The notes under the pieces are model-generated. The model saw only the letters and a program-made list of their open reading frames with translations. It did no database searches and was not told the DNA's origin. Made by a program: the position numbers and the translations under genes. From Clostridia bacterium (lineage in GTDB: Bacteria; Bacillota; Clostridia; Christensenellales; CAG-138), in the NCBI GenBank assembly GCA_017451295.1, contig JAFSPW010000110.1, positions 1-40,212 of the forward strand: 40,212 nucleotides of DNA, given 5' to 3'. This document shows, in pieces, positions 30,135 through 37,015 of this stretch (positions are counted from its first letter, which is position 1; the number at the start of each line of letters is the position of its first letter).

Positions 30135-30309
30135 TTATTTCAGGGTATCGTAGTATGCCTTGTCCACCGGCTCCAGCCACTGGGCACGGCAGTTTTTGCC
30201 CGGAATCTCCTGGGCGATATGTTGGAACCAACTGTCCCGAGCAGCGCCGTGCCAATGCTCCACACCGGCGGTTTTTTCATTGGTAATGCTCCTATGGATA
30301 AACTGTGAC
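30135..30309 (-). pseudogene. Cupin-domain protein, C-terminal remnant
   Basis: The minus strand encodes, in one open frame of about 58 codons up to a TAA stop, GVEHWHGAARDSWFQHIA, then QEIPGK and WLEPVDKAYYDTLK. This is the C-terminal signature of small cupin proteins often fused to carboxymuconolactone decarboxylase, where HWHGA carries metal-binding His. The N-terminal half of the barrel is missing: the frame runs upstream directly into the nifJ terminator, and no start codon with a ribosome site is seen. It is therefore a 5'-truncated relic. Confidence 0.7.
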
Positions 30310-30312
30310 CAC

Positions 30313-30342
30313 AAGAAAAGGCGCCCCGAACGGAGCGCCTTT
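30313..30342 (-). terminator. Terminator of nifJ
   Basis: On the minus strand AAAGGCGCTCC pairs with GGGGCGCCTTT around GTTC, with one G-T pair, followed by TTTTCTTG, 20 nt after the nifJ stop. Confidence 0.85.
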
Positions 30343-30361
30343 GTTGGGAGTTACAGTAGGG

Positions 30362-33895
<3,534 letters not shown>

Positions 33896-33916
33896 CTATT
33901 GCTTGTGTATTAAATT

Positions 33917-33931
33917 AGGGTAAAATACCCT
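33917..33931. promoter_or_regulatory. Palindrome in the nifJ 5' UTR
   Basis: AGGGTA-AAA-TACCCT is a perfect 6-bp inverted repeat about 20 nt downstream of the nifJ -10 box, where a repressor could block the polymerase. It does not resemble the Rex site TTGTTAAnnnnTTAACAA. Confidence 0.4.
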
Positions 33932-33945
33932 CCTATACCGCTCCT

Positions 33946-33975
33946 ATTATAGGCCGTTTACGGTGCCCCTGTCAA
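33946..33975 (-). promoter_or_regulatory. Consensus sigma-A promoter of nifJ
   Basis: On the minus strand a perfect TTGACA and a perfect TATAAT are separated by 18 nt, about 63 nt before the start codon. This is the best promoter in the window and predicts high expression. Confidence 0.9.
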
Positions 33976-34017
33976 GGAAAACCGGGTACAATCCGCAGAT
34001 TGTGCATATTTTCTTGC

Positions 34018-34048
34018 AGAAAAAAACAGGCATCCGAAGATGCCTGTT
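34018..34048 (-). terminator. Terminator of the cmk-plsC-ispH/S1 operon
   Basis: On the minus strand AACAGGCATC and GATGCCTGTT pair perfectly around a TTCG tetraloop and run into TTTTTTT, a textbook rho-independent terminator 14 nt after the S1 stop. Confidence 0.95.
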
Positions 34049-34061
34049 GGTATGGATTGGC

Positions 34062-35579
34062 TTATTCCTCCACCTTGAAGCCGGCAAACAGGTCGGCCAG
34101 GCTGGTGCTGGTGCTGGTCACCGGGGGCAGATCATAGTCGCCATCTTCGCTGTTGCGGCGGCGACGATCCGGCCGGGACTCCCGACGCTCGTCGTTCTGG
34201 GGACGCTCGCTCTGGGCGGGGCGCTCGCTGCGGGGCCGACGCTCGCCGTTGCCGGACTGGTTGGCATTCTCCCGCTGGGCTTTGCGCTCCTGATACAGGC
34301 GCTCCCGCTCGGCACGCTCGGCAGCCAGCTGCTCGGCGATTTCGGGATGCTCCTCGAGGGTGGCTTCCTTCCGGGACAGGGAGATGCGCTTGGCTTCGGG
34401 GTTGACCTCCAGAACCTTGCAGCGGACGATGTCGCCAACCTTCAGCTCATCCTCCACCTTCTCGATGCGGCGAGTGGCCACCTGAGAGATGTGGATAAGG
34501 CCGTCGATGGTGGGCTCCAGCGCCACGAAGGCACCGAAGGGAACGATGCGGACCACCTTGCCCTCCACGATGGAACCGACGGGGTACTTTTCGCCGGCCA
34601 TGGTCCAGGGCTTGGGCTGCAGCTGCTTGTAGCCCAGGGAGATGCGCTTCTTTTCCTTATCGACATTCAGAATGAGAACATCCACTTCCTGATTGACGCT
34701 GAGCACGTCGGAGGGGTGCTTCACCCGGCCCCAGGCGGCGTCGGTCACATGGACCAGACCATCGAGGCCCCCGATGTCCACAAAGGCGCCAAAGTCGGTG
34801 ATGCGGCGGACGATACCATGAATCTTGCTGCCCACCACCAGGGACTCCCACTTTTCCTCTTCGCGAGCAGCGGCCTCCTCCAGAAGCACCTGCTTGATGG
34901 AGGCCACGATGCGCTTGCGCTGCTTGTCAATCTCCAGAACCTTGACCTTGACGGTTTTGCCCACGTACTCGCCCAGGTTCTCCACATATTTGGTGGAAAC
35001 GTGCGAAGCGGGGATGAAGGTGCGAACGCCGCCCTCCATCTCGGCGATCAAGCCGCCCTTGACGACTTCCTTGACCACTGCCTCGAAGGTCTTGCCTTCG
35101 GTGTCCTCTGCCACCAGATCGTCCCAGAACTTCTTGCTCTGCACGTTCTTGCGAGACAGGAGCACGTTGCCCTCACCATCGTTGACCTTGACGACTTCCA
35201 CGTCAATCTGTTCGCCTTCCTGCACGTCCAGCTCACCGTCAGCGGGGAACTCGGCGCGGGGAATATAACCGTCAGACTTATAGCCCACGTTCACCAGAAC
35301 TTCGTTTTCGGTGATGCCGATGACGGTGCCGGTGACGATTTGGCCGGGACGGATGCGGCGGATGGAGCTGTCGATAGCCTGCTGGAAATCTTCTTCCGCG
35401 GACTTGGGGGCAGCCTCTTCAACAACGGGTTCTGCAACTTCCACTGCCTCTTCAGTGACAGCGACAACGGGTTCGGCCGCTACTTCAGCTTCTACGGCCG
35501 GTTCAGTGGTTTCGGCGACAACCTCGGCGGGAGCTACCGCTTCATTGGTTTCAATCGTCGTCTGCTCGAGTTCGCTCAT
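34062..35579 (-). other. Likely separate S1 product from an internal in-frame start
   Basis: The internal ATG (35577-35579, residue 273, MSELEQTT) lies exactly where the IspH domain ends and would yield a 505-residue free S1 with all four RNA-binding domains. GGGAGG stands 11 nt upstream, and an internal promoter lies about 60-85 nt upstream. This is a prediction from signals only. Confidence 0.5.
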
Positions 35580-36395
35580 TCCTAATATAACCTCCCTAAT
35601 CATGGGGTCTGGCGTCGATGCACCAGTTACCAAACCTATTATAGCATCGGAATGGAATATTTCAAGAGGTATTTTTTCGATATCCTCTAACATTTTGGTA
35701 TTGTTGCAATAATTTTTGCATATTTGAAACAGGGCCCGGGTGTTGGCGCTGCGGCCCGAACCCAGTACCAGCATGGCTGTACAGCGCCGGGCGAGGTCCG
35801 CCGCCTCCTGCTGACGGGTGCTGGTGGTGTGGCAGATGGTGTTATGAATGTCAAGGTGGGAAATCCGCTGCTGCAGCACGGCGGCAATCTCATTAAAAAC
35901 CTGCTCGGAGAGGGTGGTTTGCGCCACCAGGCAGCCCCTTTCCCCCAAGGGGACGAACTCGGCCTCCCGGGCATTTTCCAGCACCACGGCCTGGCCCTTA
36001 GCCCAGCCGGCGGTGCCGATGACCTCAGGATGAGCGCGCTGTCCGGCGATGAACACAACAATCCCCTCCCTCGCCGCCTTTTGGACGATGGGATGGATTC
36101 GGTGTACAAAGGGACAGGTGGCATCCACCGCACGAATGCCCCGTTTTGCACAGGCGGCGAACAGCTCCGGCGGTGCTCCGTGGGCACGGATAATGAGGGT
36201 ATCCCCTGCCAAAAGGCCATCGAGGCTCTCCACCGGCACGATGCCCTTTGCCGCCAGGTCGCTGACCACCGTCTCATTATGGATGAGGCGGCCCCAGGTA
36301 TACACCTTTCCCCGAGCGGCTTCCTTTTGAGCCATTTCCACCGCCCGGCGCACGCCGAAGCAAAAGCCGGCGTTTTTGGCTACGATCAGCTTCAT
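34062..36395 (-). CDS. ispH: Bifunctional IspH (HMB-PP reductase) - ribosomal protein S1
   Basis: Residues 1-275 form IspH, the [4Fe-4S] enzyme of the last MEP-pathway step to IPP/DMAPP, with cluster cysteines Cys12 (AGFCFGV), Cys94 (DATCPFV) and Cys188 (NTICHTT). An Ala/Val/Glu linker (280-340) leads to four S1 RNA-binding domains (about 350-416, 434-503, 521-591, 606-677) and an Arg/Glu/Ser-rich tail. The two halves act in separate processes, isoprenoid supply and translation initiation. Such fusions occur in other Clostridia. The ATG overlaps the plsC stop (ATGA). Codons near the end of the IspH part (35600-35740) are strikingly AT-rich and hold a promoter and a start signal for S1 alone. 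The frame is intact throughout. Confidence 0.95.
35591..35596 (-). promoter_or_regulatory. Internal Shine-Dalgarno inside ispH/S1
   Basis: GGGAGG on the minus strand lies 11 nt before the in-frame ATG of residue 273. The intervening codons (GTT ATA TTA GGA) are rare types in this GC-rich gene, as expected if the RNA is kept unfolded for ribosome entry. Confidence 0.5.
35638..35665 (-). promoter_or_regulatory. Internal sigma-A promoter inside ispH/S1
   Basis: TTGAAA (35660-35665), a 16-nt spacer and TGCTATAAT (extended consensus -10, TATAAT at 35638-35643) lie within the coding sequence for [11 protein letters not shown], on the coding strand. The surrounding ~140 bp is AT-rich in an otherwise GC-rich gene. 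Predicted transcription starts about 50 nt before the internal S1 ATG. Confidence 0.6.
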
Positions 36396-37015
36396 ACTTT
36401 CTTTTTTAGGCGAGGGGGTACGGTGTCTTCCACCTCCTGCCGCAGGGTCATCAAGGCATCCTCGATGGCATCGAGCACCGCATCCACGGGACGCTGCCCC
36501 GGACAGTTCTTTGCCACCTGATCGGGATAAATCCATTCCCCGATGCTCATGCGAATCCGCATCCGCTTCCAGCACAGGGGGTCCACATAGATGGGGATGA
36601 TGGGGGCATTTGTCCGCACGGCGATGAAGGCGGCGCCCTTCTCGGGAGTGTCCTGGTCCGTATAGTCAACGGAGCGATGGCCTTCCGGGAAGATGCCAAA
36701 GGCCATGCCCTTTTGCAGCATGGCGATGGCACGTTTCACCGGGCCTAAGTGAGACCCCTCCTCCCCTGCGGGTATCATGAGAAGGCTTCTGAAAAACAGG
36801 TTGCCGATGGGGGTGGAAAACAGGCTTTCCTTCCCCATGAAGTGGACGGTGCGGGGGTTCACGGCGGTGATGGCCACCGCATCCGCCAGGGAGAAATGAT
36901 TGCACAGGTACATGACCCCGCCCTTGGAGCGAAGCCGTTTCCAATGGAGCACCTTCGGCCGGTAAATGAGCCACACGAAGGGGCCAATAAAGATTTTCCC
37001 AAACCAATACAGCAT
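36392..37015 (-). CDS. plsC: 1-acyl-sn-glycerol-3-phosphate acyltransferase
   Basis: PlsC acylates lysophosphatidic acid to phosphatidic acid at the inner membrane face. The 207-residue protein has the catalytic NHFSLADAV (an HX4D motif), the glycerophosphate-binding GIFPEGHRS, and APIIPIYV; an N-terminal hydrophobic stretch (about 5-18) anchors it. The start overlaps the cmk stop by one base (TAATG), so translation is coupled. The cmk - plsC - ispH/S1 order recurs in Clostridia, as far as I know. Confidence 0.92.
   Translation of the reverse strand: MLYWFGKIFIGPFVWLIYRPKVLHWKRLRSKGGVMYLCNHFSLADAVAITAVNPRTVHFMGKESLFSTPIGNLFFRSLLMIPAGEEGSHLGPVKRAIAMLQKGMAFGIFPEGHRSVDYTDQDTPEKGAAFIAVRTNAPIIPIYVDPLCWKRMRIRMSIGEWIYPDQVAKNCPGQRPVDAVLDAIEDALMTLRQEVEDTVPPRLKKKV

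Follow-up and report, generated by a model that had tools for sequence, protein, structure and literature searches.

Introduction

Ribosomal protein S1 is needed in larger amounts than IspH, and the locus considered here encodes both in a single uninterrupted reading frame. The question it raises is whether such a gene delivers S1 only as part of a fused protein, or whether it also directs the synthesis of free S1 from signals that lie within the IspH coding part, as the initial annotation of this DNA had proposed. We address this question in the window, by which we mean the whole analyzed stretch of 40,212 nucleotides, and in the corresponding loci of related genomes.

Fusions of this kind have been described before: Rao et al. 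(2015, PMC4746011) collected 447 IspH-RPS1 sequences, mostly from Firmicutes, and the fusion is the same as that of the window's gene. In the available part of that account, neither a further ispH nor a further rps1 was found in the organisms holding the fusion, why it exists is left open, and it is treated as one Rosetta-stone protein, unlike the two-product reading developed here. On the basis of sequence comparison, we consider it likely, with a probability of roughly 0.87, that a nested S1 gene lies within a conserved fusion gene that gives rise to two products, and that in one lineage this nested gene has acquired a promoter of its own.

Genome and Locus Sampling

The first search covered 101 genomes, namely the window's own, 60 further family members, and 40 genomes from its order. 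It provided 56 family junctions (54 distinct sequences; none from G033, G034, G038, G043, and G053) and 34 junctions from other families of the order, with 6 of the 40 order genomes giving none. A search of the class, with 148 genomes of which 133 have an IspH match, led to 60 fetched loci, mostly one per family, comprising 50 fused loci and 10 with a complete short IspH frame; partial matches and matches at contig edges (e.g., G102) were left out. The named loci are the best 80 of 585, and the near relatives among these best 80 are uncultured Clostridia, with RUG472 as the best match, together with Christensenella sp. UBA7703 and OttesenSCG-928-K08. Finally, 118 of the 119 genomes in the phylum search have a match, and the 30 best loci comprise the window's own, 27 fused loci, and two unfused ones. 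The total is 244 fused and 12 unfused loci, and as seven of the 244 are repeats (e.g., L134 is the same as L168), 237 distinct fused loci remain. Promoters and ribosome sites were counted at junctions located with the IspH profile. We note that the family/order, named, and phylum samples lean toward near relatives and that, because the loci are related, the counts given below are not independent.

Layout of the Fusion Locus

The main features of the locus, all on the minus strand, are the following:

34062..36395, minus strand: entire ispH-S1 fusion gene (777 codons and a stop), with LYTB and S1 domains
35580..36395, minus strand: IspH (LytB) part, residues 1-272 (Pfam PF02401, E = 3.8e-84)
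34062..35579, minus strand: putative nested gene encoding ribosomal protein S1 on its own (505 codons and a stop), open to 34062
34025..34048, minus strand: terminator-like hairpin 3' of S1 (from a consensus scan only)

The LYTB match (PF02401) spans residues 4-271 and is followed, in the same open frame, by PF00575 S1 matches in four stretches, such that by Pfam the window's gene has a LYTB domain and then S1 repeats in one frame. It holds the only PF02401 match in the window's genome, the source assembly of which is fragmented (1.67 Mb in 114 contigs) and 75% complete, and a second copy could thus lie in the missing part. The computed masses of the two possible products, from 776/777 residues, are ~85 kDa for the fusion and ~56 kDa for free S1. 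Terminator-like sites in the region number 8 against 7.7 expected in the consensus scan.

Reading names other than ispH and S1 from the translations, we take the order of genes on the minus strand to be cmk, a PlsC-like acyltransferase gene, ispH-S1, the hairpin, and a pyruvate:ferredoxin oxidoreductase-like gene. The stop codon of the acyltransferase gene is shared with the ispH start in an ATGA at 36395-36392 (minus strand), which suggests that translation of ispH is coupled to the acyltransferase frame; ispH may therefore rely on coupled translation, with S1 having a strong site of its own. Directly past the terminator-like hairpin, and ahead of the oxidoreductase-like gene, lies a perfect TTGACA-N18-TATAAT (33946-33975, minus strand). 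A 1202-codon open frame runs antisense to the oxidoreductase-like gene (30305-33913, plus strand), and is probably a shadow of GC-rich coding sequence.

Predicted Transcription and Translation Signals at the End of the IspH Coding Part

The end of the IspH part carries, on the coding strand, the following signals:

35660..35665, minus strand: -35 hexamer TTGAAA, in the last IspH codons
35638..35646, minus strand: extended -10 element TGC-TATAAT (TGC at 35646-35644, TATAAT at 35643-35638)
35631, minus strand: predicted transcription start, ~7 nt past the -10 element, from which its position is inferred; leader of ~52 nt
35591..35596, minus strand: ribosome-binding site GGGAGG, 11 nt ahead of the ATG and within IspH codons R267-E268-V269
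35577..35579, minus strand: internal in-frame start ATG (Met273) of S1, read from the sequence

An internal promoter, a GGGAGG, and an in-frame ATG at residue 273 had all been proposed in the initial annotation, and each is present where it had been placed. Only the spacing quoted for the promoter requires adjustment: 16 nt do separate TTGAAA from TATAAT, but the distance from TTGAAA to TGCTATAAT, the string that had been given as the downstream element, is 13 nt rather than 16. With hexamers at a spacing within 16-18 nt, 11 of 12 consensus letters, and a TGn extension, the element has the form of a sigma-A type promoter. As the LYTB match covers residues 4-271, ATG273 stands at the domain boundary, in line with what had been claimed. 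The spacing of 11 nt between GGAGG and ATG is on the long side; that of groES in the same genome is about 10 nt.

The description of the end of the IspH part as an AT-rich island also holds, with a GC content of 0.41 in 35550-35749 compared to about 0.6 in the flanks, and a third-position GC of 0.37 in the island against 0.74 in the IspH body and 0.73 in the S1 body of the window's gene. When the protein is held fixed and codons are redrawn from the gene's own usage (300 draws), a promoter score as high as that observed has P = 0.007, and the same test on the other promoter-bearing loci gives P from 0.003 to 0.17; for three loci, this per-locus scan used a Met lying further upstream (distance 40 vs 58). 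On the evidence of the window alone, the case against a chance origin is therefore moderate (P = 0.007); a chance origin is untenable because the signals are conserved among relatives, as described below. Both a structured leader and a known RNA family were considered and rejected as further elements of this region, since the leader shows no unusual folding (z of -0.4 to -0.7) and Rfam gives no match up to E = 1 within 33900-36500.

The Ribosome Site and Start Codon Are Kept across the Phylum

The ribosome site is present in 236 of the 237 distinct fused loci, as GGAGG in 234 and GGGGG in 2, on three codons that end at Val269 or its counterpart. The single exception, the Desulfotomaculum sp. 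MAG locus (L089), has GAGGAAG in place of GGAGG. Just past this site, every one of the 237 has an in-frame start, which is ATG in 234 and GTG in 3; in the latter (L243, L245, and L259), Val takes the place of the internal Met and is encoded as GTG, itself a start codon. Conservation of the word is not matched by conservation of the residue ahead of its Glu, which may be K, R, E, M, L, T, Q, W, or G. Elsewhere in the fused genes, x-Glu-[Val/Ala/Gly] triplets spell the word in 413 of 4237 cases, as counted before the phylum loci were included.

Among the 82 loci from outside the family, the two codons of the ribosome site are identical in 1.00 of same-residue pairs, where about 0.5 is expected, while over the gene as a whole identity exceeds expectation by a mean of 0.06. 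Taken over 241 ribosome sites, the synonymous choices have a joint log10 P of -199.8, a value that assumes independence and serves only as a yardstick. A second peak of synonymous conservation in the same set, at trimmed codons 159-172, was judged to reflect identity by descent and set aside, because this stretch is variable and its residues are shared mainly by close relatives. The ribosome site and in-frame start are, then, kept beyond the needs of the protein (in 236 and 237 of the 237 loci, respectively). Across the 244 fused loci, the three codons between ribosome site and start offer 301 one-step routes to a stop codon, yet most class genomes keep the long frame, and the fusion itself therefore also seems to be kept.

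The Predicted Promoter Is a Lineage-Specific Layer

The promoter is distributed far more narrowly. TTG-N16-TGnTATAAT occurs at 56 of 56 family junctions, at 9 of 34 junctions from other families of the order, and at none of the 60 class loci; among distinct fused loci, it is found in 0/50 of the class, 0/27 of the phylum, and 1/72 of the named loci, the sole bearer there (L074) belonging to the family or standing near it. Its absence from 25 of the 34 other-family loci of the order indicates that S1 has no general need for it, and the promoter is, on this distribution, a lineage-specific layer on a wider ribosome site and start. The initial annotation had suggested aligning related genes to see whether they retain promoter, GGGAGG site, ATG, and synonymous AT bias: all 56 family junctions retain the three signals, and the bias is borne out by third-position GC, which drops from the IspH body to the island in 61 of the 64 distinct promoter-bearing loci, compared to 78 of the 173 loci without the promoter. 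Over the 244 loci, those with the promoter average a third-position GC of 0.36 in the island against 0.65 in the IspH body, and both averages are 0.43 for loci without the promoter.

Codon choice within the promoter is nearly invariant. In a set of 56 rows, which includes six named loci (five of them repeats of a family genome), the same-residue codon identity at the -35 element is 1.00 for Leu (expected 0.23) and 0.99 for Glu, and at the four -10 codons it is 1.00, 1.00, 1.00, and 0.96, with values expected from codon use of 0.23-0.51 over the six codons. Excess identity at synonymous sites peaks at the -35 element, the -10 element, and the ribosome site. Likewise, Leu-Glu is written as CTTGAA in 35/36 cases at the site against 35/324 elsewhere in the family's genes, and Ile-Ile as ATAATA in 53/57 against 14/141. 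L044 and L050 have Ile-Met in place of Ile-Ile with TATAAT still intact. Loci without the promoter mostly have other residues at this site, and five encode Ile-Ile without a TATAAT promoter. In seven promoter-bearing loci, the distance from the -10 element to the ribosome site is 45 rather than 42 nt because IspH gained a codon there, and the 16-nt spacer is intact; a further three gave 10 rather than 42 nt, which we take to reflect an earlier GGRGG word matching first.

In a quick tree of 72 proteins (28 from the family, 34 from the order, and 10 from the class), the promoter trait needs at least 7 changes, of which the well supported branches force only one. A single gain of the promoter with later losses is possible, but not shown, on this tree. 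The clustering of the promoter in one part of the tree indicates that it was gained, or selectively kept, there.

The same promoter string occurs at 12 sites in the window's genome, and its reversed control at none. Eleven of these lie outside long sense ORFs, the S1 site being the one inside a sense frame; among the 11, two share sequence with long antisense frames, and one is not followed by an ORF of 70 codons within 400 nt. With gene names assigned by reading, one site lies ahead of groES-groEL and another ahead of a threonyl-tRNA synthetase-like gene.

Unfused and Exceptional Loci

In three loci of the class sample (L153, L154, and L156), ispH and S1 are unfused and overlap out of frame, and S1 begins as MSE... 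at the conserved site, with S1 profile matches at this out-of-frame start. The three belong to one family (f58); the only further member fetched from it, L203, is fused. There is no ispH/S1 overlap in the remaining nine unfused loci: eight have no S1 within 0.9-1.5 kb downstream, and L236 has a separate S1. GGAGG is kept in one of these nine, L157, which is without S1 in the fetched stretch. In a 0.9-Mb genome with no IspH match (L276, G087), S1 follows an acyltransferase-like gene and starts MSEFN. Within the family, the frame of one locus (L056, G055) is broken in the S1 linker, about 74 codons past the junction and downstream of the internal ATG; this break would disrupt both products, and may be either an assembly fault or a real lesion.

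Proposed Mechanism and Alternative Explanations

In the arrangement that we propose, ribosomes starting at the ispH ATG would produce the full IspH-S1 fusion, and those starting at the internal GGGAGG and ATG273 would produce free S1 (505 residues, about 56 kDa) without a change of frame. Where the sigma-A type promoter TTGAAA-N16-TGnTATAAT lies in the last IspH codons, as in the window's family and in some families related to it, it would add a short S1-only transcript, an mRNA of about 1.6 kb ending at the hairpin at 34048-34025, and this extra transcript would supply S1 in excess of IspH. The alignments show selection on the DNA, beyond that on the protein, at the start region and, in the window's lineage, at the promoter, and the bacterium probably makes free S1 beside the fusion. 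We infer from these patterns that the promoter fires, that both proteins accumulate, that S1 exceeds IspH, and that uncoupling of dosage is the purpose. At the level of sequence, then, the interpretation given in the initial annotation is supported.

The internal signals could in principle be explained in other ways. A translation pause that lets IspH fold before S1, with no initiation, would fit the position of GGAGG at the domain boundary and its retention in promoter-less loci; a pause, however, needs no start codon, yet all 237 distinct fused loci have ATG or GTG just past the word, and S1 starts there out of frame in three genomes. A pause would also leave the promoter unexplained, and we regard this explanation as improbable. 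It is harder still to credit that only the internal translation start is real and that the promoter has no function, having arisen because the IspH protein is conserved where the sequence happens to be AT-rich. Asp-Ile-Ile codons can indeed yield TATAAT, and the synonymous-shuffle P values, while low for the window, reach 0.17 at other promoter-bearing loci, but conservation of the protein does not account for a codon identity of 0.96-1.00 at six -35 and -10 codons where 0.23-0.51 is expected, for promoter-less loci that mostly have other residues or, in five cases, encode Ile-Ile without the promoter, or for third-position AT richness in promoter-bearing loci and not in others.

We give slightly less weight again to the suggestion that S1 matters only in its fused form and that the internal signals are fossils from an ancestor with two separate genes. 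Most genomes by far do have an open fused frame, and the published fusion, when made in E. coli, was active as IspH according to the available part of PMC4746011. Fossils would nevertheless decay, and in the 82 non-family loci the ribosome-site codons stand at an identity of 1.00 although synonymous sites elsewhere are close to saturation, with a mean excess identity of 0.06; the promoter, being clustered in one part of the tree, was gained or selectively kept there. A nested S1 gene within a conserved fusion gene thus remains our preferred reading. A bolder extension of it, which we consider unlikely although clearly less so than any of these alternatives, is that the fusion is a two-product gene phylum-wide, with the bulk of S1 free and made from the nested gene, and with the fusion a minor product that selection retains, perhaps because it equips a small number of ribosomes with an oxygen-sensitive iron-sulfur enzyme for sensing. 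The promoter would then, in one lineage, have been written into the codons of the enzyme, changing residues (Ile-Ile) to suit RNA polymerase.

Relationship to Known Systems

In the available part of PMC4746011, a 46-kDa protein accompanied the fusion when this was made in E. coli and was identified as the Rho of that host, and free S1 is not mentioned in the account of this experiment; the terms 'promoter', 'internal', 'linker', and 'start codon' each occur 0 times in the text of the paper. Among the open-licence matches listed, as far as their available text goes, there is no report of an internal promoter or an internal S1 start in ispH-S1 fusions.

Related designs are described elsewhere, to the extent covered by the available portions of each source. 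In mycobacteriophage Ms6, lysA contains a second, embedded endolysin gene that is read in frame from an internal start (PMC3111421), as we propose for S1, but lysA is a phage lysis gene, whereas here a ribosomal protein would be nested in a metabolic-enzyme fusion, with a start that is kept across the phylum and that has its own putative promoter in one lineage. In Clostridium ljungdahlii, a promoter at the 3' end of rnfG drives the downstream rnfEAB genes (PMC6203783), much as the promoter at the end of the IspH part would drive S1; those genes are separate, however, whereas in the present case the promoter, ribosome site, and start would all lie within one uninterrupted frame.

Conclusions

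Hundreds of fusion proteins are now taken to indicate a joint function of IspH and S1. Should most S1 be free and made from the nested gene, this interpretation would have to be revised, as would the S1 annotation in most Clostridia. The role of the fusion would then become a sharp question, namely why so few genomes break the frame. In the window's lineage, a promoter and a ribosome site would be held inside the codons of an enzyme, at a cost in codon choice and, apparently, in residues.
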